Assembly: GCA_018660265.1 (NCBI GenBank)
Contig: JABJKS010000058.1
Coordinates: 1 to 64,000, forward strand
DNA from: Rhodospirillaceae bacterium
Lineage (GTDB): Bacteria > Pseudomonadota > Alphaproteobacteria > GCA-2731375
Reading direction: 5' to 3'
Length of the DNA: 64,000 nucleotides
Shown: in pieces, positions 1-35,823 of the stretch
Position numbering within the stretch: position 1 is the first letter of the stretch
Layout of the letters: each line of letters begins with the position of its first letter
Translations under genes and position numbers: made by a program
The notes under the pieces: generated by a model
The model's input: the letters and a program-made list of their open reading frames with translations, nothing else
Told to the model about the DNA's origin: nothing
Databases searched by the model: none

Positions 1-1056
1 GAAAATGTGATGGAAATGGCCAATGCCCCATCCAACAGCCAACTGGGCAATGGCAAAATCAGAATGACAAGAATAGTCGATACGCCCAGGGCCAAGGCAA
101 TGTCGCCCTGGCGCATGTGGTTGGCCCTGACGAACGGCGTTATGAGCTTTGACGCAGCGACGAGCACGGACGGCGTGTCCATCGCCCAGAATGCGACGAC
201 ACCAGCGGATCGCGGCGGCCGGGGCTTCTCGCACTTTTTTGGTATGAACGATTTACTTTCAGGTCGGGAAGATGCCGCCTTCGACACCGGATTGACCACC
301 GCCTCGGGCCACGGTTTTGGCAGTACAGGCATTATGGCTGTGGAATTCCGCGGACCCGGTGGGGTTCTCGCCGCATCCCACTCCCTGGATTTCTCAGCCG
401 TTGGCGGCACAGTTGCCAATGTTCTGACCGATCTGAACACAGGTTTCTCCGGCTATGGCACCTTTACCATGGATGCCAATGGCAAGCTTACCCTGGCACC
501 TGCGGCTGGCTATGAAAGCTATGACATGAAGGTGCGGACGGACACAACAGCGCGGGGCGCCACGGGAAAGTCATTTTCTGACCACTTTGGTGTCGGTGAT
601 CACTACCGCATGGATGCCGCTTTCAACATCACAGTCGATTCCGCGATTAAAGCCGACACGGGCAAACTGGCCCTGGCCCGTCTGGATACCGCCGCGGCAA
701 CTGGTGTGCCGGCCTTGAACAGCGGTGACAACCGAGGTGTTAACGCCTTCTTCGCTCTATCATCGGATGTCGTCAGTTTTACCAGTGCCGGCGATTTACC
801 GGCAACAACAACCACCTTGACCAATTACAGCAACTATTTCCTGTCCAATATCGGCCTGGAAGCAGACCGCCTATCCAGCCTTGCAGAGGATCGCTCGATC
901 CTTAGGCAAGAGCTGAGCATCCGGCGGGACAATGTTACCGGCATCAATCTCGACGAAGAACTGGCGGCCATGGTGCAGTACCAGAACGCCTACAATGCCG
1001 CGGCCCGCATTATCGCCGCGGTCAATGAAATGTATGACACCTTGCTGCGCATCTAG
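1..1056 (+). CDS. flgK: Flagellar hook-associated protein FlgK, C-terminal part (gene runs off the left edge)
   Basis: Frame open to position 1; C-terminus SIRRDNVTGINLDEELAAMVQYQNAYNAAARIIAAVNEMYDTLLRI is typical of FlgK; followed by flgL. Confidence 0.88.
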   Translation, partial: ENVMEMANAPSNSQLGNGKIRMTRIVDTPRAKAMSPWRMWLALTNGVMSFDAATSTDGVSIAQNATTPADRGGRGFSHFFGMNDLLSGREDAAFDTGLTTASGHGFGSTGIMAVEFRGPGGVLAASHSLDFSAVGGTVANVLTDLNTGFSGYGTFTMDANGKLTLAPAAGYESYDMKVRTDTTARGATGKSFSDHFGVGDHYRMDAAFNITVDSAIKADTGKLALARLDTAAATGVPALNSGDNRGVNAFFALSSDVVSFTSAGDLPATTTTLTNYSNYFLSNIGLEADRLSSLAEDRSILRQELSIRRDNVTGINLDEELAAMVQYQNAYNAAARIIAAVNEMYDTLLRI

Positions 1057-1092: not shown

Positions 1093-2046
1093 ATGACCAG
1101 AGTTTCAACATTCAGCCAAAGCCAATCCCTGCTGACGCAAATGATGCGCAATCAGGAGTATTTGCGCACTGAGCAGACCCGCGTGGCGACAGGCAAGAAC
1201 GGTGATGACCTGAAATCTATCGCCCGGGACGCGAACGCATTGCTGTCTTCACGCTCCGTATCTGCCCGGACGGAAAGTTTTATGAGTGCCAATCGGGAAT
1301 TGGGGATCCGCCTGGAACTACAAAACAGTGCCCTGAGCGGCATCGCCGGCATAGCCGATGAATTCCGTAATGACCTGATCAAGACCGTGAACCTGAACAG
1401 CGGCGTCGGCCTAATTGATAAGATGACCGATCACATGGACCGGTTGGTCAATCTGTTGAATACGACCTTGAACGGCCAATTTGTATTTTCCGGCACCCGA
1501 AGCGATACCTCACCTATCAATGTTTCAACCACCGCCGAATTGTTGGCTCTGACGAATACGTCGGACGCCTTTGATAACAACGCTATTAAGCTGACCCAGC
1601 GCCTGGATGAAAATCGAACTGTTGAATATGGCGTCCTGGCCAACGATGTGGCGACGCCATTGTTGGACTCCATTCGTCGGATCCAACAATTCGCAAACGG
1701 GACCTTGCCTACAGGTGCCGGTGCCTATAGTCCCGCCGGTGCTTTTACCGATCCGTTAAGCGAAAACCAGACCAATTTCCTAGTCAACGAATTCAGTGGC
1801 GCTGTGAGCGCCATTGCCACCGCCCGTCAGGCCGAGGAAATGAACGGCATTCATATGAGTACCGTCGATAAACAGCTGGATTTACAGCAGGAAGAGATTA
1901 ATTTCCTTGATATTTTTACCGCTGAGATAGAAAACGTTGATATCGCCGAGGCGGTCGCAAACCTAAAGGCGGGCGAGACGGCATTGCAGGCATCTTTGCA
2001 GGTTCTTGGCCGTCTGGGACGGCTAAGCTTGCTTGACTATATCTAG
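1093..2046 (+). CDS. flgL: Flagellar hook-associated protein FlgL / flagellin-like
   Basis: N-term MTRVSTFSQSQSLLTQMMRNQEYLRTEQTRVATGK, flagellin-type coiled-coil N and C termini; adjacent to flgK. Confidence 0.88.
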   Translation: MTRVSTFSQSQSLLTQMMRNQEYLRTEQTRVATGKNGDDLKSIARDANALLSSRSVSARTESFMSANRELGIRLELQNSALSGIAGIADEFRNDLIKTVNLNSGVGLIDKMTDHMDRLVNLLNTTLNGQFVFSGTRSDTSPINVSTTAELLALTNTSDAFDNNAIKLTQRLDENRTVEYGVLANDVATPLLDSIRRIQQFANGTLPTGAGAYSPAGAFTDPLSENQTNFLVNEFSGAVSAIATARQAEEMNGIHMSTVDKQLDLQQEEINFLDIFTAEIENVDIAEAVANLKAGETALQASLQVLGRLGRLSLLDYI

Positions 2047-2088: not shown

Positions 2089-3108
2089 ATGACGAAACTT
2101 CAATTAGCGGACGATGGATTGGATGTTGTCACGGGGGGCGCCGGATTTATCGGCAGCCACCTGGTTGACCATTTGCTGGCCGATGGGCGTCGGGTTCGCG
2201 CGGTGGACAATTTTGTCACCGGGGGACCCCACAATCTGAAACACCTGACGGATAACGATCGGTTTGAGCTGATCGAGGCTGATGTCCGTGACCGTGCGGG
2301 CATTGTGAAGGCCTTGGATGGCGCGGAACGGATTTTCCACCTTGCCGCCTTGGCCGACATCGTCCCATCTATTCAAAATCCCGAAGGCTACTATGATACC
2401 AATGTCACCGGCACATTCAATGTCTTGCAGGCCGCACGAAGTCTTGATGTGAAGCGTCTGGTCTATGCCGCCTCTTCCTCCTGTTATGGCATTCCAGATA
2501 ATTATCCCACGGCGGAGAGTGCGGATATCCGGCCCGAATACCCCTACGCCCTGACGAAGTATTTGGGCGAAGAATTGGTGATGCATTGGGCCCAGCTGTA
2601 CGGCCTGCCCGCCGCCTCATTGCGGTTCTTTAACGTTTATGGACCGCGGGCCCGGACATCAGGAACATACGGTGCGGTCTTTGGGGTATTTCTGGCCCAA
2701 CTATTGGCTGATGAGCCTCTGACCATTGTGGGCGATGGCTCGCAAACCCGTGACTTTACCTATGTTGGCGATGTCGCCGATGCCATTGCCACTGTTGGCG
2801 GCTATAACGAAAGCGGCGAGGTTTTCAACGTCGGTACCGGCAAGGATGTCTCGGTTAATTATTTGGTCGAATTGCTAGGTGCCAAGGCCACCCTGCATAT
2901 TCCGAAACGGCCCGGCGAACCCGATTGCACATTGGCGGACGTGACCCGGATCAATCAACGCTTTGGCTGGCGGGCAAGCGTGCCTATAGAGGAAGGTGTG
3001 CGGATCATGCTTGATAACATTGAGTATTGGCGCGATGCACCGGTTTGGGATGCCGCAAAAATTGCTGCCGCCACGGAAGATTGGTTTCGTTACCTTTCGG
3101 ATGATTAA
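2089..3108 (+). CDS. NAD-dependent epimerase/dehydratase (extended SDR, UDP-glucose 4-epimerase-like)
   Basis: GGAGFIGSHLVDHLL nucleotide-binding motif, YALTKYLGE (YxxxK), RFFNVYGPRA. Confidence 0.88.
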   Translation: MTKLQLADDGLDVVTGGAGFIGSHLVDHLLADGRRVRAVDNFVTGGPHNLKHLTDNDRFELIEADVRDRAGIVKALDGAERIFHLAALADIVPSIQNPEGYYDTNVTGTFNVLQAARSLDVKRLVYAASSSCYGIPDNYPTAESADIRPEYPYALTKYLGEELVMHWAQLYGLPAASLRFFNVYGPRARTSGTYGAVFGVFLAQLLADEPLTIVGDGSQTRDFTYVGDVADAIATVGGYNESGEVFNVGTGKDVSVNYLVELLGAKATLHIPKRPGEPDCTLADVTRINQRFGWRASVPIEEGVRIMLDNIEYWRDAPVWDAAKIAAATEDWFRYLSDD

Positions 3109-3194: not shown

Positions 3195-4316
3195 ATGTAC
3201 TTTGTGGCGTCTAAACTAAGTCGCGAAATTTCTGCCCCTGAAATGCGCCGCGATTATCTCCACGATAACCGACTTGATCTTTGCGTAGCCTACCTACAGC
3301 ACGTCTTTGGCGATAGCCTGAAGGGGGCCCGGGTCATTGATTATGGCTGCGGTCACGGCGATTGGGCCCTGGCGTTTCGCAGGGCAGGGGCCGAGCATGT
3401 GCTGGCTATCGATGCTGCGGTCGATAATGTCAGGTATCTTCATGACAACAGTCGTGCCATGGGATTTGATGGCTTGGACGTGGTGCAGGGCGATCTGTTA
3501 AGCCAAAATATCGGCGGGGAAAAAGCCGACATTGTTTGGCTGTATGATGTCCTCCCGCACGTGCCGCGGCCTTTAGCATTGTTGCAGGCACTGCGGGATT
3601 TGGCACCTGGGGCTGCGGCACAGTTCTATATCAACGCCTATGATGCGGGTAGCTTGCGGCAATTTTCCGTGGAGACGGCGCGTCAGTTATACCCTCACCC
3701 AGGCCGGGATGCCTTTGACCTGGATTGTCTTTCTCTGACCCGCGAAGCGCGACGCCGGGGCGGCGATAATCTGATGGTTTCCCAGATTGAATGGTTTAGT
3801 GCGACTGGATTTGCCGAGATTTTAAGCGGTGCCGGGCTGGAACCTGTTGAACGTCCCATGGGTTTTCACAGTTTTCAGGGTGCGGGCAGCAATACAGAGT
3901 TCCAACCCCACGAGGCACTGTGTCGTGGGGTTCCGGCTGAGGGTGCCATGCTTTGGGAGGAGCCGCCGCGGGAGTATGGCTGCGATCTTGCGGTTTTGGC
4001 CGCCATGGCGCGCGAAGTGAATTTTTCACTGACTGACAGGCAGTTCCGGACCCAGGCCGCAATGGGATTGCTGAATACCCATTTTGCCAATTTAGTGGGG
4101 AATAATGCCTGTTCGGGCACGGCTATGGAAATCTACCTGTATCTCTTTCATATCCTTGATGTGCATGGCGGCCTACGTCAGGCAGAGGGCTTGGCCAGGG
4201 ATTTCATAGAATTGACGGAGGCCGCTTTATCCGATGCGCCCCGCCGGCAATTACGCGCGGCCAACCACGCCGCCACCATAGCGCGCGATCTTTGTGAGTC
4301 GTCTATTCATCTATAG
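3195..4316 (+). CDS. Class I SAM-dependent methyltransferase
   Basis: VIDYGCGHGDWALAFRRAGAEHVLAIDAA motif I; DIVWLYDVLPHVPRP. Confidence 0.8.
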   Translation: MYFVASKLSREISAPEMRRDYLHDNRLDLCVAYLQHVFGDSLKGARVIDYGCGHGDWALAFRRAGAEHVLAIDAAVDNVRYLHDNSRAMGFDGLDVVQGDLLSQNIGGEKADIVWLYDVLPHVPRPLALLQALRDLAPGAAAQFYINAYDAGSLRQFSVETARQLYPHPGRDAFDLDCLSLTREARRRGGDNLMVSQIEWFSATGFAEILSGAGLEPVERPMGFHSFQGAGSNTEFQPHEALCRGVPAEGAMLWEEPPREYGCDLAVLAAMAREVNFSLTDRQFRTQAAMGLLNTHFANLVGNNACSGTAMEIYLYLFHILDVHGGLRQAEGLARDFIELTEAALSDAPRRQLRAANHAATIARDLCESSIHL

Positions 4317-4377: not shown

Positions 4378-6837
4378 GTGGATTGGATCGTCGATCAAGC
4401 TAGGATGACGCGGATGGCAGGTGATATGGTGCGACAAGTTGATGGCAGTGCCAGACGACCTTTTCAATTCGGCACCAAGGCGCAGACCCTTGCCGCACTG
4501 GCACCATTGGTTACAAGTGCCCAGGTCCTCGATCTTTACTTTTTTACGGTAACCGAATGGCGGAATGATCCTGACGCAGTGTTGGCGCAGATCACCGAAC
4601 GCTTTGGCACGATAGCCTTGGTGGTGCGCAGCAGTGCCCATGCCGAAGATCAGGGCGATGCCTCTATGGCCGGTGCCTTTGAATCCAAATTGAATGTGGA
4701 CGGTGGGGACCCAAAAGCGGTTACGACCGCTGTCAAAGATGTTATCGATTCTTACGTTGGTCACCCGGATGATCAGGTTCTGGTCCAGGCCATGTTGGAC
4801 GATGTCGCCATATCCGGTGTGGCGATGACCCATGATGTTGAACGGGGTGCGCCGTTTTATGTGGTCGACTACGATGATGAATCGGGGCGAACCGACACGG
4901 TAACGGGCGGCGATAGCGTTCATAAGACGGTTATCGTATTTCGCGATGCCGATTTGGAGCTGGTTGAAAGTCCCCGGATACGAGCCGTTCTGGCCCTGGT
5001 GCGGGAAGTTGAGATCCTGTGCGGTGGTGTCCCCCTGGATATGGAATTCGCCATGCAGGGCGACGGCAGTATGTACCTTCTCCAGGCGCGGCGGATATCT
5101 CTGCAACGAAACTGGCTGTCAGGTACCGAGCGCCGTGTTTCAAAGCGGTTGGAATTCGTCGAACAATATTTGACGGAAAGATCATTGCCCCGCCCCGGAC
5201 TGGGCGGTGAACGGACCATTTTGGGCATCATGCCTGATTGGAACCCGGCGGAAATGATCGGCATCGTACCCCGACCGCTCGCGGCCTCCCTCTATCGGCA
5301 ATTGGTGACCCGCAATGTGTGGAGCCGGGCGCGGGAGCGTATGGGATACCGCGCCATGCCGAACGAAGAATTGATGGTTATGATCGGCGGACGTCCCTAT
5401 ATCGATGTGCGAAACAGCTTCAACTCCTTCCTGCCCGCCGGCGTCAGTGATCAGGTTGCCGACCGTTTGGTGAATGCCTGGCTGAACCGTTTGGCCGATC
5501 ACCCCGAACTCCATGACAAAGTGGAATTTGCGGTGGCCCAGACCTGCCTTGATTGCTGTTTCGATGAGGATTTCAACGGCCATTACCAAGGCGTCCTGTC
5601 TACGGACGAAGCGGCTGATTTTCGCAACCGACTGGCCGCACTTACCAATCATTGCCTCAATCTTGGCCCATCGGGAACTTTATCGTGGTCGTTGGAAATG
5701 ATCGAGGATCTGACGACAAAACAAACCTTGCGGAAACTGAACCCCGATGCGGGCAGACCGCGGGAGCCGTTTTCCGTGGCAGCCGACCTGCTGCTTGAGT
5801 GTGAAGTATCAGGGACCATTCCATTTTCCATTGTTGCCCGTCACGCCTTTATTGGTGAGGCATTGCTGAAATCCCTGGCCCGCCGGGGTGCCATTGGCGA
5901 TGACCGGTTGGATACGTTCAAGCGTTCCGTACGCACCATCAGTGGCGAATTGACCTCTGATTTCGCAGCTGTCTGTCATGGTGGCTTTAGCCCCGATACT
6001 TTCATGATGCGCTATGGCCATTTGCGTCCCGGTACCTATGACATCATGTCCCTGCGCTATGATCATCGGAACGAATTGTTCGAGGGCTCCGCCCTTGGGG
6101 CGGAACCACAGGTGCCGAAATTCGATCTAACCGGGGGCGAGCGGGAAAATATCAACAAAGTCCTGGCTGAAAGTGGCATCACTGCGGTTGATGCGGACAG
6201 TCTGTTGGATTATGCCCGGCGCACCATTGCTGGGCGGGAATATGCCAAGTTTATATTTTCGGCAAATATTTCCGATGCTCTGGAGGCCATTGCCACATGG
6301 GGCGAAAATATCGGCCTTGATCGTGAACATCTCTCATACATCGAATTCGACGCCATGATCGATGCTCGGGTGAAGCCGTTACTGGATGATATTGACCTTC
6401 ATTTTATTGATCTCGCCGAACAGGGGCGGCGTAATGTGGCCATGGCCCAGTCATTGAAGCTGGGCTATATCCTGCGGGACCGTCGCGACATCTATGTGGT
6501 GCCGCTGCATCGTGCGGCCCCGAATTTTGTCGGCAGCGAACGGGCCGTGGCCGCTCCGGTGGTGTTGGGACCTTTGGCATCATCAGCCACCGATATCTAT
6601 AATCGCATCGTTTGCATCGAAAACGCCGATCCCGGCTATGACTGGATATTCACCAAAGGCATTAAAGGCCTGGTGACAAAATTTGGCGGTGCCAACTCCC
6701 ACATGGCCATCCGCTGTGCTGAATTCGGATTGAGTGCCGCCATCGGTTGCGGCGAAGGCACGTTCGAGCGTCTTTTGGGGGCCCGCGCTATCGAAGTCGA
6801 CCCCTTGAGCAAGACCTTGCGCGCAGTGGATAATTGA
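4378..6837 (+). CDS. PEP synthase/pyruvate phosphate dikinase-like phosphotransferase (PPDK N-terminal ATP-binding + C-terminal PEP-utiliser phospho-His domain); candidate glutamine-kinase-like
   Basis: KAQTLAALAPLV, VVRSSAHAEDQGDASMAGAFESKLNV, TGGDSVHKT; C-term TKGIKGLVTKFGGANSHMAIRCAEFGLSAAIGCG with the expected phospho-His. Confidence 0.8.
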   Translation: MDWIVDQARMTRMAGDMVRQVDGSARRPFQFGTKAQTLAALAPLVTSAQVLDLYFFTVTEWRNDPDAVLAQITERFGTIALVVRSSAHAEDQGDASMAGAFESKLNVDGGDPKAVTTAVKDVIDSYVGHPDDQVLVQAMLDDVAISGVAMTHDVERGAPFYVVDYDDESGRTDTVTGGDSVHKTVIVFRDADLELVESPRIRAVLALVREVEILCGGVPLDMEFAMQGDGSMYLLQARRISLQRNWLSGTERRVSKRLEFVEQYLTERSLPRPGLGGERTILGIMPDWNPAEMIGIVPRPLAASLYRQLVTRNVWSRARERMGYRAMPNEELMVMIGGRPYIDVRNSFNSFLPAGVSDQVADRLVNAWLNRLADHPELHDKVEFAVAQTCLDCCFDEDFNGHYQGVLSTDEAADFRNRLAALTNHCLNLGPSGTLSWSLEMIEDLTTKQTLRKLNPDAGRPREPFSVAADLLLECEVSGTIPFSIVARHAFIGEALLKSLARRGAIGDDRLDTFKRSVRTISGELTSDFAAVCHGGFSPDTFMMRYGHLRPGTYDIMSLRYDHRNELFEGSALGAEPQVPKFDLTGGERENINKVLAESGITAVDADSLLDYARRTIAGREYAKFIFSANISDALEAIATWGENIGLDREHLSYIEFDAMIDARVKPLLDDIDLHFIDLAEQGRRNVAMAQSLKLGYILRDRRDIYVVPLHRAAPNFVGSERAVAAPVVLGPLASSATDIYNRIVCIENADPGYDWIFTKGIKGLVTKFGGANSHMAIRCAEFGLSAAIGCGEGTFERLLGARAIEVDPLSKTLRAVDN

Positions 6838-6962: not shown

Positions 6963-8027
6963 ATGGATGTAAAACCAGTTGTAGACGTTGTCGGCACCGA
7001 TTTAAGCCCTTTCGCCAGGCCGGCGGAGCGGCTTCTTGATCTGCCGGACCGCCCTGGATTTGCACGCGCCCTGTCTTTTTTTCATGAATATCCCGTCCGT
7101 GCATTATCAGTGCCGAAAAATCGTGCCTTCATGCATTGTCTGGTGGCTGCCAGAAAGCCTGATCTATTCGTTGAAATTGGCACATATTATGCCGGCATGA
7201 CGGAAGTCGTGGCCCGCGCCATGCAGGCCAATGGCAATAACGGGCAGCTATTGACCATAGATCCTTATGGCAATGACCGGGTGCCGGGGATATTGGAATC
7301 CTGGCCCAGCGAATTGAGCGATATGGTGTCCTACCTGCCACTGGATTCCATGGGATTTTATACCCAGATCGATACCATCAAGGCGGTTGTTGATGTCTGT
7401 TTCATTGACGGCAATCACCTCTATGAATTTGTTCTCTACGATCTGAACTGCATGGCGCAAAGAATGCGGCCAGGCGGTATTGTAATCATGGATGACTACT
7501 CCCAGCCGGGCGTTTTTTGGGCAACCAAGCATTTTTTGGACCTGAACCCAGGTTGGCGAGAGATTAGCGGGGTCTTTGACGATTTCGATCCCCATGCACC
7601 CTTTGAAAGTATTCGGCCAAGCATACCCAATACGGATTTTCTGGTGCTGGCGGTGCCTGATTATATTGAGGTCGGTGAAGCACCAAGCGTATTCGAATAT
7701 GGCAGATACCGCGAGACGGCCATGTCCGGATATAACCTAAATCTTGGTCCTGGAAATGTCGCGGGCAGGCTGCATGCCATGGTCTATCTGCGCAGTTTCT
7801 ATGAAGATGGTTCGTTAGGTGATCCGGAGCAATTGGAGCTTATCATTTCATCGGACATATCGGGCGACGGCGGCGAACAGGCTGTTTCGTTCGGCGCGTC
7901 ATTGGCGACAGCCTATGATCGCGCCCTGACCATGCGCCAGGTAGAGATCAATCTTGTCTGGTCGCCATCCGATGGTCGGACGCCATTGCGTCTGCATCAG
8001 CGCCCCGAACCAGTCATGTCGAACTAA
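6963..8027 (+). CDS. Class I SAM-dependent methyltransferase (Methyltransf_24-like) with an extra C-terminal region
   Basis: DLFVEIGTYYAGMTEVVARAM, DVCFIDGNHLYEFVLYDL, MRPGGIVIMDDY. Confidence 0.72.
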   Translation: MDVKPVVDVVGTDLSPFARPAERLLDLPDRPGFARALSFFHEYPVRALSVPKNRAFMHCLVAARKPDLFVEIGTYYAGMTEVVARAMQANGNNGQLLTIDPYGNDRVPGILESWPSELSDMVSYLPLDSMGFYTQIDTIKAVVDVCFIDGNHLYEFVLYDLNCMAQRMRPGGIVIMDDYSQPGVFWATKHFLDLNPGWREISGVFDDFDPHAPFESIRPSIPNTDFLVLAVPDYIEVGEAPSVFEYGRYRETAMSGYNLNLGPGNVAGRLHAMVYLRSFYEDGSLGDPEQLELIISSDISGDGGEQAVSFGASLATAYDRALTMRQVEINLVWSPSDGRTPLRLHQRPEPVMSN

Positions 8028-8179: not shown

Positions 8180-9430
8180 ATGAGCGGCAATTATCGAATA
8201 ATGCGTATGTCCCGAAACGCATATCATTCTGTTTTCGACGATATGCTACGTCAGGATACAAACCTTGCCGAAGCCGGCTTTGCAAAGCAAATGGAAGCCT
8301 TTTTTGCCAAAAGCTTGATCTACAGCGATAGCTTTTCCCGAGCCATGGACGGGCTAGGCAATGAGACCTTGGAAATCGTTTGCAATGGCGAATTGATGCA
8401 AAAAACCTGGGCTGCGACCCACGGCGTCACTTATGACGAAGACGACTGGGTGCGCCAGATTATGTGGGCCCAGGTAGAGGAATTTCGTCCCGATGTGGTT
8501 TTTATTCAGGGGTTGACCAGCAACAGTACTGGTTTTCTGCCCGAGAATGGCTTTCGGGAAAAATTCCCCTTTGTCCGCGCCGTAGTTGGCTTTGCCGGTT
8601 ACTTTCATCCCGCTGACCGGCTGGAGGGCGTTGATGTTGTCATTTCCGGCTTACCGTCCGTATTCAACTATTATCGGGCCGAAAATGTCCCTACGGAATT
8701 GATTTACCACGGCTTTGACGCCTCGTTGGTAGAGCGGGTGCCGGAACCCACCGGAGATATGATTGATCTGAGTTTCATCGGCTCGACCGGTCTTGGTTAC
8801 GGCGAGAACCATGCGGTGCGCTATTGGGAATTGTTGGAACTTTGTTGCGGCAGCGACATCCAACTTTGGGCTAATGAAAAATTCGATGCCGACCAGTTGG
8901 CCATGTCGGGGGAGCAACTGGCTGGCCTGGGCCAATCGTTGCGAGGGATGGTGGGGCAGCATACCCCGGCGGCGGTGGTGGAGGTATTTCGCGAGTCTAT
9001 ATCCTCCTCCTCCGGCACTCATTTGCCGGTCCTGCCGCTTTCGCTGATCTTTCCAGACCGCGTTCATGAAGCCATTTACGGATTGGAAATGTATGCCACC
9101 CTGCGCCAATCGCGCCTGACCTTGAATAGGCATTTTGATCCCGATAGCGGCATTAGGGAAATCGGCAACATGCGGACCTTCGAAGCCACCGGCATCGGCA
9201 CCTGTATGTTGGTCAACGAGGGCGACAATGTGCGCGATCTGTATGAACCGGACACGGAAATCGTCACCTATGCCAGTGTTGAAGAATGTCTGGAGAAGGC
9301 CAACTGGTTGTTACAAAACGATGAAAAACGCCGGGAAATAGCGGCGGCGGGCCAGAAAAGAACCTTACGGGATCATACCATCGCATCCCGTTGTGCGGTG
9401 ATCGATGGTTTGATTCGTGGAATGATTTAA
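8180..9430 (+). CDS. CgeB-like glycosyltransferase (Glyco_trans_1_2 type)
   Basis: C-terminal LNRHFDPDSGIREIGNMRTFEATGIGTCMLVNEGDNVRDLYEPDTEIVTYASVEECLEKANWLL resembles CgeB-type transferases. Confidence 0.7.
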   Translation: MSGNYRIMRMSRNAYHSVFDDMLRQDTNLAEAGFAKQMEAFFAKSLIYSDSFSRAMDGLGNETLEIVCNGELMQKTWAATHGVTYDEDDWVRQIMWAQVEEFRPDVVFIQGLTSNSTGFLPENGFREKFPFVRAVVGFAGYFHPADRLEGVDVVISGLPSVFNYYRAENVPTELIYHGFDASLVERVPEPTGDMIDLSFIGSTGLGYGENHAVRYWELLELCCGSDIQLWANEKFDADQLAMSGEQLAGLGQSLRGMVGQHTPAAVVEVFRESISSSSGTHLPVLPLSLIFPDRVHEAIYGLEMYATLRQSRLTLNRHFDPDSGIREIGNMRTFEATGIGTCMLVNEGDNVRDLYEPDTEIVTYASVEECLEKANWLLQNDEKRREIAAAGQKRTLRDHTIASRCAVIDGLIRGMI

Positions 9431-11274: not shown

Positions 11275-12402
11275 GTGACCGAAGCGAACATGAAAAGGGC
11301 ACCTGTTCCTTATGTGGATCTGCAGTCGTCCTATAAGGACGAGCGCGATGACATTATTGCCATCGTCGATGATATTTTCGGCAGCGGCCAGTTCCTTGGC
11401 AATAAGCATGTTGCCAAGTTCGAAGCGGATGCGGCGACAGCCCTCGATGTCGCGCAAGTCGTTGCCGTGGACTCAGGCACGGATGCCCTCGTCTTAGGGA
11501 TGGGGGCCTTGGGCATTGGTCCCGGAGACGAAGTAATTACACCCCCAAATTCCTTTCTCGCATCGACGGGTGCCATCATTCAAATTGGGGCAATCCCGGT
11601 TTTTGCCGATGTTTTGCCTGATCAGAATATCGACCCCGATGCTGTGTTGAAAGCCGTTACAACGCGCACTAAGGCCATAATGGCTGTGCACTTGTCGGGC
11701 CGAATGGCGGAAATGGACCGTTTATCAGAAATCGCGGAAGAGCATGGTGTCTTGTTGATCGAAGATGCCGCGCAGGCCATGGGCTCTTCTCAGAACGGGC
11801 GCAAGGCCGGGTCATTCGGACAAATTGGCTGCTTTTCAACCCACCCGGTGAAAAACCTTGGTGCTGCAGGTGATGGCGGCTTCATTGCCACCAACGATGT
11901 GGAAATGGCCGAACAAATCCGCTTCACACGGCGTCATGGTTTGATCGACCGGGATACGGCACCGACCTGGGGCATTGTCTCGCGGATGGATGAGTTGCAG
12001 GCGGCCATACTATCGCTTCGCCTAACGACGTTGTCCGGCAAGATCGAACGGCGGCGCGCCAATGCCGCCCTGTATCGAGACTGTCTGGACCCGGATCACG
12101 TCTTTCATGCGCCCTGTAGGGATGGCGACTACAATACTTTCCATACATTTGTTGTTCAGGTCGCAGAGCGGGATAAACTGCGCCAATACCTAAGCGATCA
12201 TGATGTATCAACGGCGATCCACTATCCTGTACCTATACACCTGCAACCTTGCGCACGGGATCTGGGTTGGGGGCTAGGTGATGTGCCAGTCGTAGAAGCG
12301 CAGGCTGGACGAATTTTATCCCTGCCCGTTCATGAACACTTGTCTGAGAATGATATTAAATTCGTTGCCGATACAGTGAACCATTTCCTATCGAATATTT
12401 AG
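11275..12402 (+). CDS. DegT/DnrJ/EryC1/StrS family aminotransferase (sugar aminotransferase)
   Basis: PYVDLQSSYKDERDDI, VAVDSGTDALVLGMGALGIGPGDEVITPPNSFLASTGAI, CFSTHPVKNLGAAGDGGFI PLP-Lys motif. Confidence 0.93.
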   Translation: MTEANMKRAPVPYVDLQSSYKDERDDIIAIVDDIFGSGQFLGNKHVAKFEADAATALDVAQVVAVDSGTDALVLGMGALGIGPGDEVITPPNSFLASTGAIIQIGAIPVFADVLPDQNIDPDAVLKAVTTRTKAIMAVHLSGRMAEMDRLSEIAEEHGVLLIEDAAQAMGSSQNGRKAGSFGQIGCFSTHPVKNLGAAGDGGFIATNDVEMAEQIRFTRRHGLIDRDTAPTWGIVSRMDELQAAILSLRLTTLSGKIERRRANAALYRDCLDPDHVFHAPCRDGDYNTFHTFVVQVAERDKLRQYLSDHDVSTAIHYPVPIHLQPCARDLGWGLGDVPVVEAQAGRILSLPVHEHLSENDIKFVADTVNHFLSNI

Positions 12403-12414
12403 GCGGAGATTAGG

Positions 12415-13116
12415 GTGTCGCTGGATGTGGTTTTAATCGGTGCCGGCGGCTCGGGCTTGAAAATCACCCAAATTGCCGAAGATCGTTGGGATAACGGCTC
12501 AAGGGATTGGAAAATCGTTGCGGTCCTTGACGACGATGTGGCGCTGCATGGTCAACAGCTATTGGACTATCCTATCGTTGGTGGCACGGAAGCCTTGAAC
12601 ATTCAATTCATGGACAAGAAAATCGGTGTGATTTGTGCTGTGGGCGCGCCTGTGACGCGACGCAGAATTGTTGATCGCATTAAAGGGCCGAATATAAGCT
12701 TCCCCAATGCTATCCATCCCTCCGCACAGGTTTCGAAGCGGGCCTGCATGGGGCAGGGCAATATTCTTTGCCAGAATGTGGTGTTGCAGGCCGGCGTGGA
12801 AATTGGCGATTTCAATTGTTTCAACATGGCTGCCGTTATGGGGCCTTTGGCCACGACGGGAGATTTTTGCACTGTAAATGCCCATACAATGTTGGCTAGT
12901 GGCAGTGCGCTGGGGAATTATTGTTATGTTGGCATGGGTGGCAAGGTCGCGCCGCGGATCAAGGTGGACGAGGGCACAACCATTGGCGCCAACACGTTTG
13001 TCCACCGGACGCCGCCCGCCTGGACGACAGTCTTTGGCCTGCCTGCGAAGGTAATCAAGCGCACCAGTGCGCCCCAGTTTGACGACCAAGAGATTGATGG
13101 CAATGACGGCAATTGA
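12415..13116 (+). CDS. Sugar O/N-acyltransferase, NeuD/PglD family (left-handed beta helix)
   Basis: N-term DVVLIGAGGSGLKITQIAED PglD-like; hexapeptide repeats GNILCQNVVLQAGVEIGDFNCFNMAAVMGPLATTGDF; VGMGGKVAPRIKVDEGTTIGA. Confidence 0.85.
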   Translation: MSLDVVLIGAGGSGLKITQIAEDRWDNGSRDWKIVAVLDDDVALHGQQLLDYPIVGGTEALNIQFMDKKIGVICAVGAPVTRRRIVDRIKGPNISFPNAIHPSAQVSKRACMGQGNILCQNVVLQAGVEIGDFNCFNMAAVMGPLATTGDFCTVNAHTMLASGSALGNYCYVGMGGKVAPRIKVDEGTTIGANTFVHRTPPAWTTVFGLPAKVIKRTSAPQFDDQEIDGNDGN

Positions 13117-13798: not shown

Positions 13799-16447
13799 CT
13801 ATTCGCCCAGTTCGATGCGTTCGGGCGGTCGCCCGGCCAGATGATTGTGCCAGGCCGCTGCAATGGCATTGTCCAAATTTCGGCCATAGCGTGCGTTGTC
13901 GAAAAGTGGCTGGCTGTCGCGGCCATCCAAAAGACGCTGGCGCAGGGCCTCTCGTTCATCGCCATCATTGGCCAGCGCAACAGCGCGTTCGACATAGCTG
14001 GCTAGATCCGGCATCACCATTTCGGGAATGCCGGCGGCATTGCATAATGTGGCTCCCAAACGTGCGCCCGGTTTATCGCCCAGAATTGAGAGGACGGGAA
14101 GGCCGACCCACAGGGCATCAACGGACGTGATGCCGCCGCCGTGATGCAGATTATCCAGCGCCAGATCAACCAGGGCCAGCCTGGCCAAATGATCCTGATG
14201 CTCTACAATTTCGGAAAAAATCAGACGCTCTGCATCAACGCCGTGTTTGGCCGCTTCCCGGCGTAAATTGCCTTGCGTGTCGTCCATCCATGCCCCGAAC
14301 CATAGGACGCTGTCGGGGACCTTTTTCAGGATCTCCATCCAGGCAGCAAAGATCACCGGTTCAAACTTGCAGGGGTGATTGAAATTGCAAAATACAATGG
14401 CGTCTTCCGGCAAACCTACATCCTTCCGGCTGACGGGGGCACCAACGGCCTCGGGTCGTTTTGTCGGCATGAACGTGTTTGGCAGATAAAGCATTTTTTC
14501 CGGCCCCAAATTCTCCCACGCTTCGGGGATATAGGTGCGGTCGGTGATCAGATAGTCGATATAGTCGGCGCCGGTGGTGATGGAATAGCCATAGCCGTGC
14601 ATTTGCACCGGTGCCGGTCGGAACGATGAGATCGGCATACAGTTGATGGAGGTCAGGCCGGTGACGTCGATCAAAACATCAATGCCATCATCATTGATCA
14701 TCTGCGCCGCCAAATAGGGCGCGGCTTCGGGGATGTCCTTGAAATGATCGAAGGCGGCGCGATAGTTGGCGGAGAAGTCACTGTCATCGCCCGGTTTGAC
14801 GGAATAGCCGAAGACTTCGAAACGGTCCCGGTCATGGCGTTTGACAATCTCCTCCAACACCAGGGGCAGACTATGGAACCAAGTGTATCCCAGGGCGTAA
14901 CCGAGGCGAATGCGCCCATCACCGGCTTTTTTATTTTGCGGCGCGGCGTGCACCAGATCCGGGGCCAGCAAATTCATCCGCGCATCCGCGGCAATATTGG
15001 CGGCGGCATGGCGGGCCGTCTTGGCAATGAATTCGTAACTGACGGGCAGCGCCTGTAAATTGAAAACATCAAAACGGCCGCCTTCCTCCGCAGTATCGGC
15101 AAACCCGGCTTCGATCTGGTCAACCTGGCTTTGACAGATCGCCTCATAATCCGTCCAGTCGCACATGCCCATTTTCAGATCGAAAATCCGGATGGCGGCG
15201 TTGCTATCGTCGGGTGATATGGCAAGTATATTTTGATAGACGATGATGGCGGCGGCGGCGTTCTTGTGCTGCTCAAACATCCCGGCAATGGCACCAAGGA
15301 TGATGGTATTTTGGGTCCCTGAATCCAGAACAGTAGATATATGCTGCATCTTTAGCTTCTGATCTACTGTGGCCGCTGCAATTGTGACGTTGGCGCGCAG
15401 TTCATTCGGGTCCAGGGTCAAGGCTTTCTGGGCCAGGGCGATCGCTTCGTCAAATCGACTTTGGGAGCGCAGTAAATTGGCCTGGTCCGCCATCAAATGA
15501 GCATCGCTGGGGGCTAATTTCATGGCTTGCTGGCGCGCGGTCAGGGCTTCCTGGAAGTCCCCTAGGTTTTCGAGCACCAGAGCATATTCTTTCAAAATCA
15601 TGACTTCGTCCGGGAGGACACGGGTCAGACGCTCAAATTGCGCCCGCGCGCCTGACAGGTCATGCATCTGTACCAGGCATCGGGCAAGACCATGGCGGGC
15701 AGCGTGGAAATTGTCATCAATGCTTAAGGCCTGCAATAATGCCTCGCGGGCCTCGCGATATTGTTGGGTCTGCATGTACAGACCGCCCAGGGTGTTCCAC
15801 GCCAGCATAAAGTCGGGCCGGGCCTGTAGAAGATCGTGCAGTATATTAATGGCCTCGGCCACGCGCCCCAAACCTTCCAGGGCGCCGGCCAGATTATTGC
15901 CGCAAGCGGGATCATTGGTCAGTTTATAGGCGATGGAGAAGTAGTGGGCCGCGCCTTCCAGGTCGCCTTGTTTTTGTCGCAGATTTCCAAGGGAGAAATT
16001 GCCTGCCGCATGGTCTGGTTCAGCCCGTAGAATTTCCTGTAGATATTGTTCAACCAGATCATCATCGCCATTTTTCCGAGCCATCTCAGCCAGGCTGTGC
16101 CAGGCATCAAAATGCCGTAGATCAAGCTCCGTTGCGCAAAGATAGCTGCGTGCGGCAGCCTCCAACGCGCCCAATTGTTCGTGCATTTGGCCTAGTTGAA
16201 ATTGGCTATGCGGATTGCCAGGGTCCATCTCAACGGCACGTTCAAGGCACTGTTTCGCCTCGGCGTGGCGATGCAGACCACCCAGTACGATCCCCAGGTT
16301 CAGCCAGACAGCCGCCTGTTCGGGCCATATATCCGAAAGTTCCAGATAAAGCGGCACAGCGCCCAGCAGATCACCCGCCGTCGCAAGGGCATTGGCCTGC
16401 TGCCAGAGAGCGTCGCCACTAGAAGAAGAATTTTGATCCATACTCAT
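13799..16447 (-). CDS. TPR-repeat protein with O-GlcNAc-transferase (SPINDLY/GT41-like) C-terminal domain
   Basis: About 10 TPR units followed by IRLGYALGYTWFHSLPLVLEEIVKRHDRDRFEVFGYSV ... DVLIDVTGLT ... FCNFNHPCKFEPVIFAAWMEILKKVPDSVLWF ... DLALDNLHHGGGITSVDALWVGLPVLSILGDKPGARLGATLCNAAGIPEMV. Confidence 0.9.
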   Translation of the reverse strand: MSMDQNSSSSGDALWQQANALATAGDLLGAVPLYLELSDIWPEQAAVWLNLGIVLGGLHRHAEAKQCLERAVEMDPGNPHSQFQLGQMHEQLGALEAAARSYLCATELDLRHFDAWHSLAEMARKNGDDDLVEQYLQEILRAEPDHAAGNFSLGNLRQKQGDLEGAAHYFSIAYKLTNDPACGNNLAGALEGLGRVAEAINILHDLLQARPDFMLAWNTLGGLYMQTQQYREAREALLQALSIDDNFHAARHGLARCLVQMHDLSGARAQFERLTRVLPDEVMILKEYALVLENLGDFQEALTARQQAMKLAPSDAHLMADQANLLRSQSRFDEAIALAQKALTLDPNELRANVTIAAATVDQKLKMQHISTVLDSGTQNTIILGAIAGMFEQHKNAAAAIIVYQNILAISPDDSNAAIRIFDLKMGMCDWTDYEAICQSQVDQIEAGFADTAEEGGRFDVFNLQALPVSYEFIAKTARHAAANIAADARMNLLAPDLVHAAPQNKKAGDGRIRLGYALGYTWFHSLPLVLEEIVKRHDRDRFEVFGYSVKPGDDSDFSANYRAAFDHFKDIPEAAPYLAAQMINDDGIDVLIDVTGLTSINCMPISSFRPAPVQMHGYGYSITTGADYIDYLITDRTYIPEAWENLGPEKMLYLPNTFMPTKRPEAVGAPVSRKDVGLPEDAIVFCNFNHPCKFEPVIFAAWMEILKKVPDSVLWFGAWMDDTQGNLRREAAKHGVDAERLIFSEIVEHQDHLARLALVDLALDNLHHGGGITSVDALWVGLPVLSILGDKPGARLGATLCNAAGIPEMVMPDLASYVERAVALANDGDEREALRQRLLDGRDSQPLFDNARYGRNLDNAIAAAWHNHLAGRPPERIELGE

Positions 16448-34465: not shown

Positions 34466-35002
34466 AGGCGGGGAACCGCTGCCCGCGCCCAGGGCACGTT
34501 GCAGAACAACTGAATCCAGCCAGCGCCCGGCTTTCCAGCCGATGCCCACAATCAAGCCAACTTGGCGAAAGCCCATTTTCTCATGGAACCGGATGGAGGG
34601 TTGGTTGTCGCTGTCGCCAACCACAGCGATCATTTGCCGATAACCCAGCCCCGTGCAATCGTCGATCACCTGTTGCAACAGGGGCCCGGCGATGCCTTGG
34701 CCGGCGCGGTCGGGGTGCAGATAGATGGTGTTTTCCACCGTGAAGCGATAAGCGGGCCGGGTCCGATAGGGGCCGGCATGGGCATAACCGGCCACCTCCC
34801 CATCCAGTATAGCGACCACATAGGGGTAGCCTTGGGCGACAAAGCCATCCCGCCGCAGGTTCATTTCCGTTAAATCGGGCGGTTCCAACTCCCAACTCGC
34901 CAGGCCGTGCAGGACATGATGGGCATAGATCGTCTGGATTGCCCCCATGTCAGCGTCGGTGACGGGGCGGATATGTAATTCTGATGACGCTGCCGGCGTC
35001 AA
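34463..35002 (-). CDS. GNAT N-acetyltransferase (phosphinothricin acetyltransferase-like)
   Basis: LHIRPVTDADMGAIQTIYAHHVLHGLASWELEPPD, NTIYLHPDRAGQGIAGPLLQQVID; TTG start overlaps the upstream gene stop. Confidence 0.85.
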   Translation of the reverse strand: MTPAASSELHIRPVTDADMGAIQTIYAHHVLHGLASWELEPPDLTEMNLRRDGFVAQGYPYVVAILDGEVAGYAHAGPYRTRPAYRFTVENTIYLHPDRAGQGIAGPLLQQVIDDCTGLGYRQMIAVVGDSDNQPSIRFHEKMGFRQVGLIVGIGWKAGRWLDSVVLQRALGAGSGSPP

Positions 35003-35823
35003 GCCACCTGGCCTGCCACTTGTCCTATGCCGGCCGCCTGGCACCGCTTTATGGCGTGCTCCGCCACTGCCCGGCCAAACGCCTCGAACAAGGCACGGTA
35101 AAAGGGATGATCTTCCGTACGGTATTCCGCATGCCATTGCACGCCGATGGAAAAGGTCGATGACGCCTCAACGCGCACCGCCTCGATCATGCCGTCATCG
35201 GCGACGGCTTCAACCACAAGAGGTTCCGCCAAACGGTCGATGCCCTGGGCATGCAGGGTGTTGACCATGACCTTGTTGGCGCCATTGGCCAGTGATTGCA
35301 GGGTGCCCCCCGGACTTAAGGTAATGCGTTGGCGCGCGCCCATCTGCACTGCGATAGGCATATGCCTTGGCCGGCGGTGATCGAAATGACTGGGTTGTTC
35401 ATGCATATATTGATGCAGGCTACCGCCCAGGGCGACGTTCATTTCCTGAATGCCGCGGCAAATGCCAAACAAGGGAACCTCGCGGGAGACACAGGCACGG
35501 ACAATTTCCAACGCCACGCCGTCACGGCGGGCATCAAGGAGGTTCTGATCCCGCGCCTCGCCACCGCCATAATGCTGCGGGTGCACATTCGAAGCACCCC
35601 CTGTTAGAACGACCCCATCGATATTATCCAACAAAGTATCCAGGTCCGCGCCGCTGCCCAAGGCGGGCAAGGCAAGCGGCAGGGCACCGCAAATATCCTG
35701 GATCGCGACAACGAAACGATCTCCGATGCGGTGGTTGGCGTGATTTTCTTCAACATTGAAATTGCTGACAATGACGACGATGCCGTTCGCGCGTTTTTCG
35801 TTGTTCTGTGTGGTGCTTTGCAT
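34999..35823 (-). CDS. Gamma-glutamyl-gamma-aminobutyrate hydrolase family protein (peptidase C26)
   Basis: DGVVLTGGASNVHPQHYGG, VPLFGICRGIQEMNVALGGSLHQ, GVQWHAEY. Confidence 0.93.
   Translation of the reverse strand: MQSTTQNNEKRANGIVVIVSNFNVEENHANHRIGDRFVVAIQDICGALPLALPALGSGADLDTLLDNIDGVVLTGGASNVHPQHYGGGEARDQNLLDARRDGVALEIVRACVSREVPLFGICRGIQEMNVALGGSLHQYMHEQPSHFDHRRPRHMPIAVQMGARQRITLSPGGTLQSLANGANKVMVNTLHAQGIDRLAEPLVVEAVADDGMIEAVRVEASSTFSIGVQWHAEYRTEDHPFYRALFEAFGRAVAEHAIKRCQAAGIGQVAGQVA

Follow-up and report, generated by a model that had tools for sequence, protein, structure and literature searches.

A divergent PRK05849-family gene behind flgK and flgL is predicted to encode a Cj1418-type L-glutamine kinase whose partner genes are dispersed in the genome

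The gene with which we are concerned lies at positions 4378-6837 (+ strand) of a 64,000-nucleotide stretch of DNA (the window: assembly GCA_018660265.1, contig JABJKS010000058.1, positions 1 to 64,000) from a Rhodospirillaceae bacterium whose genome, 97.24% complete, is distributed over 121 contigs. A preliminary description, made from the letters of the DNA, had proposed that its product is an amide or sugar kinase of the type of Cj1418 of Campylobacter jejuni, and the evidence presented below strongly supports its assignment as an ATP-dependent L-glutamine (amide) kinase of that type rather than a phosphoenolpyruvate (PEP) synthase. The gene itself, as described earlier, is confirmed as real. 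Its open reading frame (ORF) contains no internal stop and, compared with an 88% identical ortholog in a sister genome (G388), it is under purifying selection, with a nonsynonymous divergence (dN) of 0.069 and a synonymous divergence (dS) of 1.17 (dN/dS of about 0.06, similar to the values for mnmA and for the cytidylyltransferase gene considered below). The GTG start is uncertain, in-frame ATG codons being available from position 4405 on and conservation within the NF004508 family beginning at about residue 28. The gene and its parts are as follows:

4378..6837, + strand: PRK05849/NF004508-family kinase, predicted ATP:L-glutamine (amide) phosphotransferase, 819 amino acids (NF004508, Pfam, AlphaFold model)
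4477..5103, + strand: nucleotide-binding domain of the ATP-grasp/PPDK_N type, about residues 34-242 (Pfam and conservation)
5125..6597, + strand: all-helical acceptor (substrate) domain, about residues 250-740 (DSSP of the model and conservation)
6604..6801, + strand: C-terminal swivelling phospho-His domain, residues 743-808 (PF00391, 39.3 bits, and fold)
6700..6702, + strand: codon for H775, the histidine of the GGANSHMAIR motif that is predicted to be phosphorylated (invariant in 102 kinases)

The product matches NF004508 (PRK05849) in NCBIfam with 875.4 bits, against a cut-off of 501, over residues 28-817. It is therefore a full-length member of a family that is labeled "hypothetical protein" and for which a function is proposed here. 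Pfam recognized PPDK_N at the N-terminus (57.6 bits, cut-off 27) and the phospho-His (PEP-utilising mobile) domain PF00391 at residues 743-808 (cut-off 23.1); no further family matched at E <= 0.1, and none of the PEP/pyruvate barrel. An AlphaFold model built on 61 relatives (mean predicted local distance difference score 89.6, predicted template-modeling score 0.86; the first 30 residues poorly modeled) displays an ATP-grasp domain, a long all-helical acceptor domain and a C-terminal swivelling phospho-His domain, in that order and with no barrel. Thus, the preliminary description was correct as to the ATP-grasp-type N-terminal domain of pyruvate phosphate dikinase (PPDK), the C-terminal phospho-His domain with its GGANSHMAIR motif and the missing barrel. 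Its "long linker", at about residues 250-740, is a well-predicted, nearly all-helical domain rather than a featureless stretch. When the model was compared with known structures by Foldseek, as that description had suggested, the best match was rifampin phosphotransferase (E 7e-23; 5HV1, 5FBS), which has the same domain order and with whose histidine region H775 aligns; PEP synthase was far behind (2.6e-7). Because of this layout and fold match, the enzyme would work as a phosphotransferase of three domains, its phospho-histidine moving back and forth between ATP and the acceptor domain.

Two other identities were considered and rejected. PEP synthase and pyruvate phosphate dikinase share with the window kinase the ATP-grasp and phospho-His domains, which speaks for a relative that has retained PEP chemistry. 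The window kinase, however, has its histidine domain at the C-terminus and lacks the barrel, scores 41.1 bits with PEP_synth (TIGR01418; cut-off 739.75) and less than 50 bits with other PEP synthase models, whose cut-offs are far higher, and is accompanied in the genome by a separate PPDK-type (PPDK_N) protein encoded on contig 24. By these scores it does not fall among the true PEP synthases, and we consider PEP chemistry very improbable. Hardly more credible is an enzyme that, like rifampin phosphotransferase, acts on a natural product or drug: the best fold match and the common domain order speak for it, whereas the acceptor is unrelated, the RIF_Ptrans_rph model (NF041857) gives 35.6 bits against a cut-off of 999, and members of the family keep company with the phosphoramidate genes to which we now turn.

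The kinase, cytidylyltransferase, hydrolase and adenylyl-sulfate (APS) kinase-like genes that recur around members of the family correspond to Cj1415-Cj1418, with which Campylobacter produces its phosphoramidate donor; Cj1418 (EC 2.7.3.13, O-methyl phosphoramidate pathway) resembles the window kinase in combining an ATP-grasp with a C-terminal phospho-His domain. To our knowledge the phosphoramidate pathway is experimentally known only from the capsule of Campylobacter. Its enzymes and their gene names have been described (PMC6429109, PMC10071015), and Cj1418 itself, an L-glutamine kinase, was earlier annotated as PEP synthase/PPDK (PMC10971088). The NF004508 family is sparse, with matches over the cut-off in 16 of 385 alphaproteobacterial genomes. 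A profile scan of genome contigs confirmed at least 562 stretches, of which the best 80 relatives were compared; these span Pseudomonadota, Bacillota, Verrucomicrobiota, Acidobacteriota, Bacteroidota, Planctomycetota and other phyla, and Campylobacter is not among them. With hidden Markov models of the partners built from annotated plasmid and alphaproteobacterial neighborhoods (three of the 80 loci share contigs with the training loci), the hydrolase was found in 77 loci, the cytidylyltransferase in 75, both in 74, the APS-kinase-like gene in 70 and all three in 66. Hydrolase and cytidylyltransferase usually lie from a few base pairs to about 2 kb from the kinase. In the annotated plasmids, with the exception of that of Cupriavidus, the kinase is followed by genes of the "gamma-glutamyl-gamma-aminobutyrate hydrolase family" and the "phosphocholine cytidylyltransferase family" (unnamed on the plasmid of locus L051 and identified there by BLAST), and two of the plasmids also carry an "adenylyl-sulfate kinase" gene. 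Both partners are present in all 16 alphaproteobacterial neighborhoods examined, and NF045546, gamma-glutamyl-CDP-amidate hydrolase, is the top NCBIfam match for 11 of 11 hydrolases tested, that of the source genome included. Because these constant neighbors reproduce the Campylobacter phosphoramidate gene set, gene context argues strongly that the function of the family is that of Cj1418. Together with the family scores (875 bits with NF004508, 41 with PEP_synth) and the fold, this linkage upholds the earlier proposal of a Cj1418-type amide kinase.

The preliminary description had noted that the cytidylyltransferase and amidase partners were not to be found in the cluster. This holds for the cluster and not for the genome, since partners are present on contigs 19 (C19) and 51 (C51):

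C19:11711-12481: cytidylyltransferase, 74% identical to the operon gene of congener G187
C19:12493-13140: gamma-glutamyl-CDP-amidate hydrolase, 66% identical to that of G187 (NF045546 110.9 bits, cut-off 250)
C51:98896-99405: APS-kinase-like gene, candidate cytidine diphosphoramidate kinase, 80% identical to the operon gene of G187

The genes of contig 19 are adjacent and lie between a tripartite ATP-independent periplasmic (TRAP) transporter and a sensor kinase. Kinase, pair and APS-kinase-like gene thus occupy three separate contigs, whereas in G187 they are clustered. A split pathway is usual in this genus, as three other congeners (G386, G389 and G390) also have the cytidylyltransferase on a contig other than that of the kinase. 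The APS-kinase-like gene on contig 51 has kept the two genes that follow it in G187, which encode a protein of about 190 amino acids without a Pfam or NCBIfam family and a formyltransferase-like protein. Across the loci compared, the first family was found in 14 and the second in 18, and in phosphoramidate operons both travel with the APS-kinase-like gene (for example, L068:8313-8885 and L068:7567-8442, respectively); they are possibly new parts of the pathway. The one amidase-like gene noticed in the window, at 34999-35823 (- strand), is easily mistaken for the pathway hydrolase but was rejected as a generic gamma-glutamyl hydrolase of the Peptidase_C26/PuuD type (209 bits).

The kinase gene is found 2.3 kb behind flgL, inside an island of epimerase, methyltransferase, glycosyltransferase, aminotransferase and acyltransferase genes:

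7..1056, + strand: C-terminal part of flagellar hook-associated protein FlgK, with which the contig begins (TIGR02492, 7.8e-21)
1093..2046, + strand: flagellar hook-associated protein FlgL (TIGR02550, 1.8e-23; PRK08913, 8.2e-30)
2089..3108, + strand: NAD-dependent sugar epimerase/dehydratase of the glycan island (Pfam Epimerase, 202 bits)
3195..4316, + strand: S-adenosylmethionine-dependent methyltransferase, separated by a 61-bp gap from the kinase downstream (Pfam Methyltransf_23)
6963..8027, + strand: methyltransferase downstream of the kinase (Pfam Methyltransf_24)
8180..9430, + strand: glycosyltransferase (Pfam Glyco_trans_1_2)
11275..12402, + strand: sugar aminotransferase of the DegT/DnrJ/EryC1 type (Pfam, 325 bits)
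12415..13116, + strand: sugar acyltransferase of the NeuD/PglD type (TIGR03570, 152 bits, just under the cut-off of 160.8)
13799..16447, - strand: tetratricopeptide repeat protein with a glycosyltransferase family 41 (GT41) domain, at the border of the island before mnmA (Pfam Glyco_transf_41, 235 bits)

Besides the source genome, G388 alone in the family carries this kinase, and it has the same GT41/mnmA border behind the gene. As judged by tblastn (locus L079), its upstream methyltransferase keeps the C-terminal half, its downstream one the first 27 codons, and GT41 is truncated; the kinase is intact. The suggestion that the neighboring methyltransferases act on the product of the kinase is not supported: the methyltransferase adjacent to the kinase is truncated where the kinase is not, and the methyltransferase family conserved in phosphoramidate operons, present in 53 of the neighborhoods compared, has no clear member in the source genome.

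Three observations point to a flagellar glycan as the carrier of the phosphoramidate, a target that we slightly favor. One is the position of the kinase behind flgK and flgL. Another is the setting of the APS-kinase-like gene on contig 51, which lies about 5 kb from pseB and pseC and up to about 20 kb from pseG and pseI (all above their cut-offs); pseudaminic acid loci are typical of flagellin glycosylation. The third comes from five Pseudomonas-type loci (L110, L113, L115, L118 and L126) in which a complete kinase operon stands directly behind flgK-flgL, with a gap of about 70-210 bp between flgL and the operon where both ends could be mapped. Two of these loci, L110 and L113, are nearly identical, and their kinases belong to a subfamily other than that of the window kinase. 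Flagellin-like genes also occur within 10 kb of the kinase in six further loci, one of them (L121) confirmed by Pfam. The same enzyme and pathway could instead serve another surface polymer (capsule, exopolysaccharide or lipopolysaccharide), the proximity to flgKL being incidental. Most related operons are indeed housed in ordinary polysaccharide loci, the contig 19 pair has non-flagellar surroundings, and the target in Campylobacter is the capsule (PMC9561416). We consider this alternative less likely in view of the kinase behind flgKL in the source genome, with remnants of the upstream methyltransferase and GT41, and with mnmA, around the kinase of G388, of the APS-kinase-like gene near pseBCGI and of the independent linkage of flgL and kinase in Pseudomonas. 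In these five Pseudomonas loci, among them L115:6455-15004 from a strain of P. taiwanensis, the phosphoramidate operon lies within an apparent flagellar glycosylation island.

How closely the window kinase resembles other members of its family was examined with an alignment of 102 kinases and a tree of 104. In the alignment 59 residues are invariant, and the window kinase keeps all of them, including K34, R84-S85-S86, E223, Q236 and R238 of the ATP-grasp domain (also invariant in 61 of 61 relatives) and N289, H379, D380, R488, H548, R550, R620, E621 and K624 of the acceptor domain. In the tree, 87 kinases form a clade with a support of 100 (subfamily I); the window kinase belongs to a looser subfamily II, in which it and the kinase of G388 group with those of L051, a deltaproteobacterial plasmid, and L046 (support 99). 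Many residues of the window kinase depart from the consensus of subfamily I, and at 45 positions the departure is common to its own subfamily. The partner enzymes of the source genome are 66-80% identical to those of its congeners, despite the non-orthologous kinase. Because the tree separates the kinases while the partners remain congener-like, the kinase has either been replaced or undergone duplication and loss, the partner genes having been retained.

Taken together, we propose, with a probability of roughly 80%, that the window gene encodes a Cj1418-type glutamine kinase that works with dispersed partners to decorate a glycan of the cell surface, most likely that of the flagellum, with phosphoramidate. 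Each chemical step, glutamine as the acceptor, and the target are modeled on the Campylobacter pathway. H775 of the swivelling C-terminal domain would be phosphorylated from ATP bound by the ATP-grasp domain at the N-terminus. The swivelling domain would then swing to the helical middle domain and there phosphorylate the amide nitrogen in the side chain of glutamine, creating a phosphorus-nitrogen (P-N) bond. The contig 19 cytidylyltransferase would activate the phosphoglutamine with CTP, and the neighboring hydrolase would cut the activated product to yield cytidine diphosphoramidate, which the APS-kinase-like enzyme of contig 51 may phosphorylate at the 3' position. Finally, some transferase would move the phosphoramidate onto the surface glycan.

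A number of findings weigh against this proposal. The tie to the assayed enzyme Cj1418 consists of the gene set, the NF045546 model and the architecture, without a direct alignment, and the NF045546 matches, at 70-127 bits, are under the equivalog cut-off of 250; sequence searches of the PDB returned no characterized glutamine kinase, cytidylyltransferase or hydrolase of the phosphoramidate pathway. Three congeners (G359, G385 and G391; L086, L087 and L091), one of them 98% complete, have the cytidylyltransferase-hydrolase pair and no kinase match, which may reflect either pathway decay, an assembly gap or a second use of the pair, and an APS-kinase-like gene of this type was not detected in G388. 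A phosphoramidate transferase was not identified, there being no universal neighbor among the loci compared, from which the search was made without a reference protein. Nor was the usual operon methyltransferase found in the source genome, where only generic methyltransferases matched (best 50.6 bits). It should therefore not be taken for granted that the product is O-methylated as in Campylobacter, whose capsule bears unmethylated phosphoramidate as well (PMC9561416). The flagellar linkage is a recurrent pattern, not a measured enrichment, and several of its loci are related. Lastly, the window kinase is not orthologous to those of five congeners (separation 99 in the tree), and in subfamily II, the window kinase included, at least 45 positions that are conserved elsewhere have been replaced, with a concentration at 316-330 and 469-495 of the acceptor domain.

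The last two findings raise the alternative that the acceptor has switched in the divergent subfamily to another amide, a guanidine or a sugar, the native glutamine kinase having been lost or hidden in a gap of this incompletely assembled genome. Such a switch appears improbable to us, as all of the invariant residues are kept, no other protein of the genome exceeds the NF004508 cut-off, and the nearest relatives outside the genus, those of L046 and L051, belong to complete operons with hydrolase and cytidylyltransferase. Because these nearest relatives sit in complete operons, glutamine is more likely to have remained the acceptor of the window kinase than to have been replaced by a new one, although this is the weakest link of the argument.

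Relative to Cj1418, then, the system differs in having its genes over three contigs, in lying in a flagellar glycan island rather than a capsule locus, in the divergent subfamily of its kinase and in the missing conserved methyltransferase, and it is known from sequence alone. A literature search on PRK05849 found nothing. Glutamine kinase has been described in a review as specific to C. jejuni (PMC9561416) and phosphoramidate modification as restricted to Campylobacter (PMC6429109); in the open literature (most subscription papers lay outside the search) the pathway is treated as Campylobacter-specific except for a structure-based suggestion for archaeal Borg elements (PMC12660748). A phosphoramide group is also reported in the lipooligosaccharide of Xanthomonas, with no pathway described alongside it (PMC8042644). 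The b-type flagellin of Pseudomonas aeruginosa carries rhamnose and a 209-Da phosphate-containing group (PMC3958885), and the type A flagellin glycan of Clostridioides difficile contains phosphate (PMC10714395). Both resemble the proposed product in being phosphorus groups placed on flagellin by genes near flagellar genes, and differ from it in that neither phosphoramidate nor glutamine kinase is reported in the passages concerned. A 2009 paper on a Clostridium flagellar island was rejected as a parallel, phosphoramidate work being cited there merely in passing. The kind of enzyme is thus known, and what our analysis supports as new is a kinase of a divergent subfamily, a pathway whose genes are dispersed, and a setting that is flagellar and associated with pseudaminic acid. 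If the family assignment is true, enzymes annotated as "hypothetical" or "PEP synthase" mark P-N surface chemistry across many phyla, and non-pathogenic Pseudomonas strains with a complete operon directly behind flgL are a simple place to look for a flagellin phosphoramidate. Tentatively, and at somewhat less than even odds, P-N decoration may be an overlooked bacteria-wide surface chemistry with PRK05849 as its marker, split here over three sites, and flagellar in several unrelated lineages; with similar reserve, these might comprise the present alphaproteobacterium, Pseudomonas, some Rhodocyclales and Bacillota.

Finally, we note some variants among the loci compared. In eight loci, mainly of Acidobacteriota (L112, L120, L122, L129, L130, L139, L140 and L150), kinase and APS-kinase-like domain are fused in a single ORF. 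The kinases at L045:8269-11298, L053:13155-16364 and L054:13338-16346 have an extra N-terminal nucleotidyltransferase-like stretch in addition to the separate cytidylyltransferase gene. In genome G350 (L050:8993-11802) the kinase is divided into two ORFs by a stop within the match and is apparently broken, while hydrolase and cytidylyltransferase still adjoin it. On a plasmid of Agrobacterium vitis (L056:13917-19006), the genes for a LysE-type exporter and for a protein like CDP-alcohol phosphatidyltransferase come after those for kinase, hydrolase and cytidylyltransferase, which suggests that the product there is a small molecule or a lipid and not a glycan.

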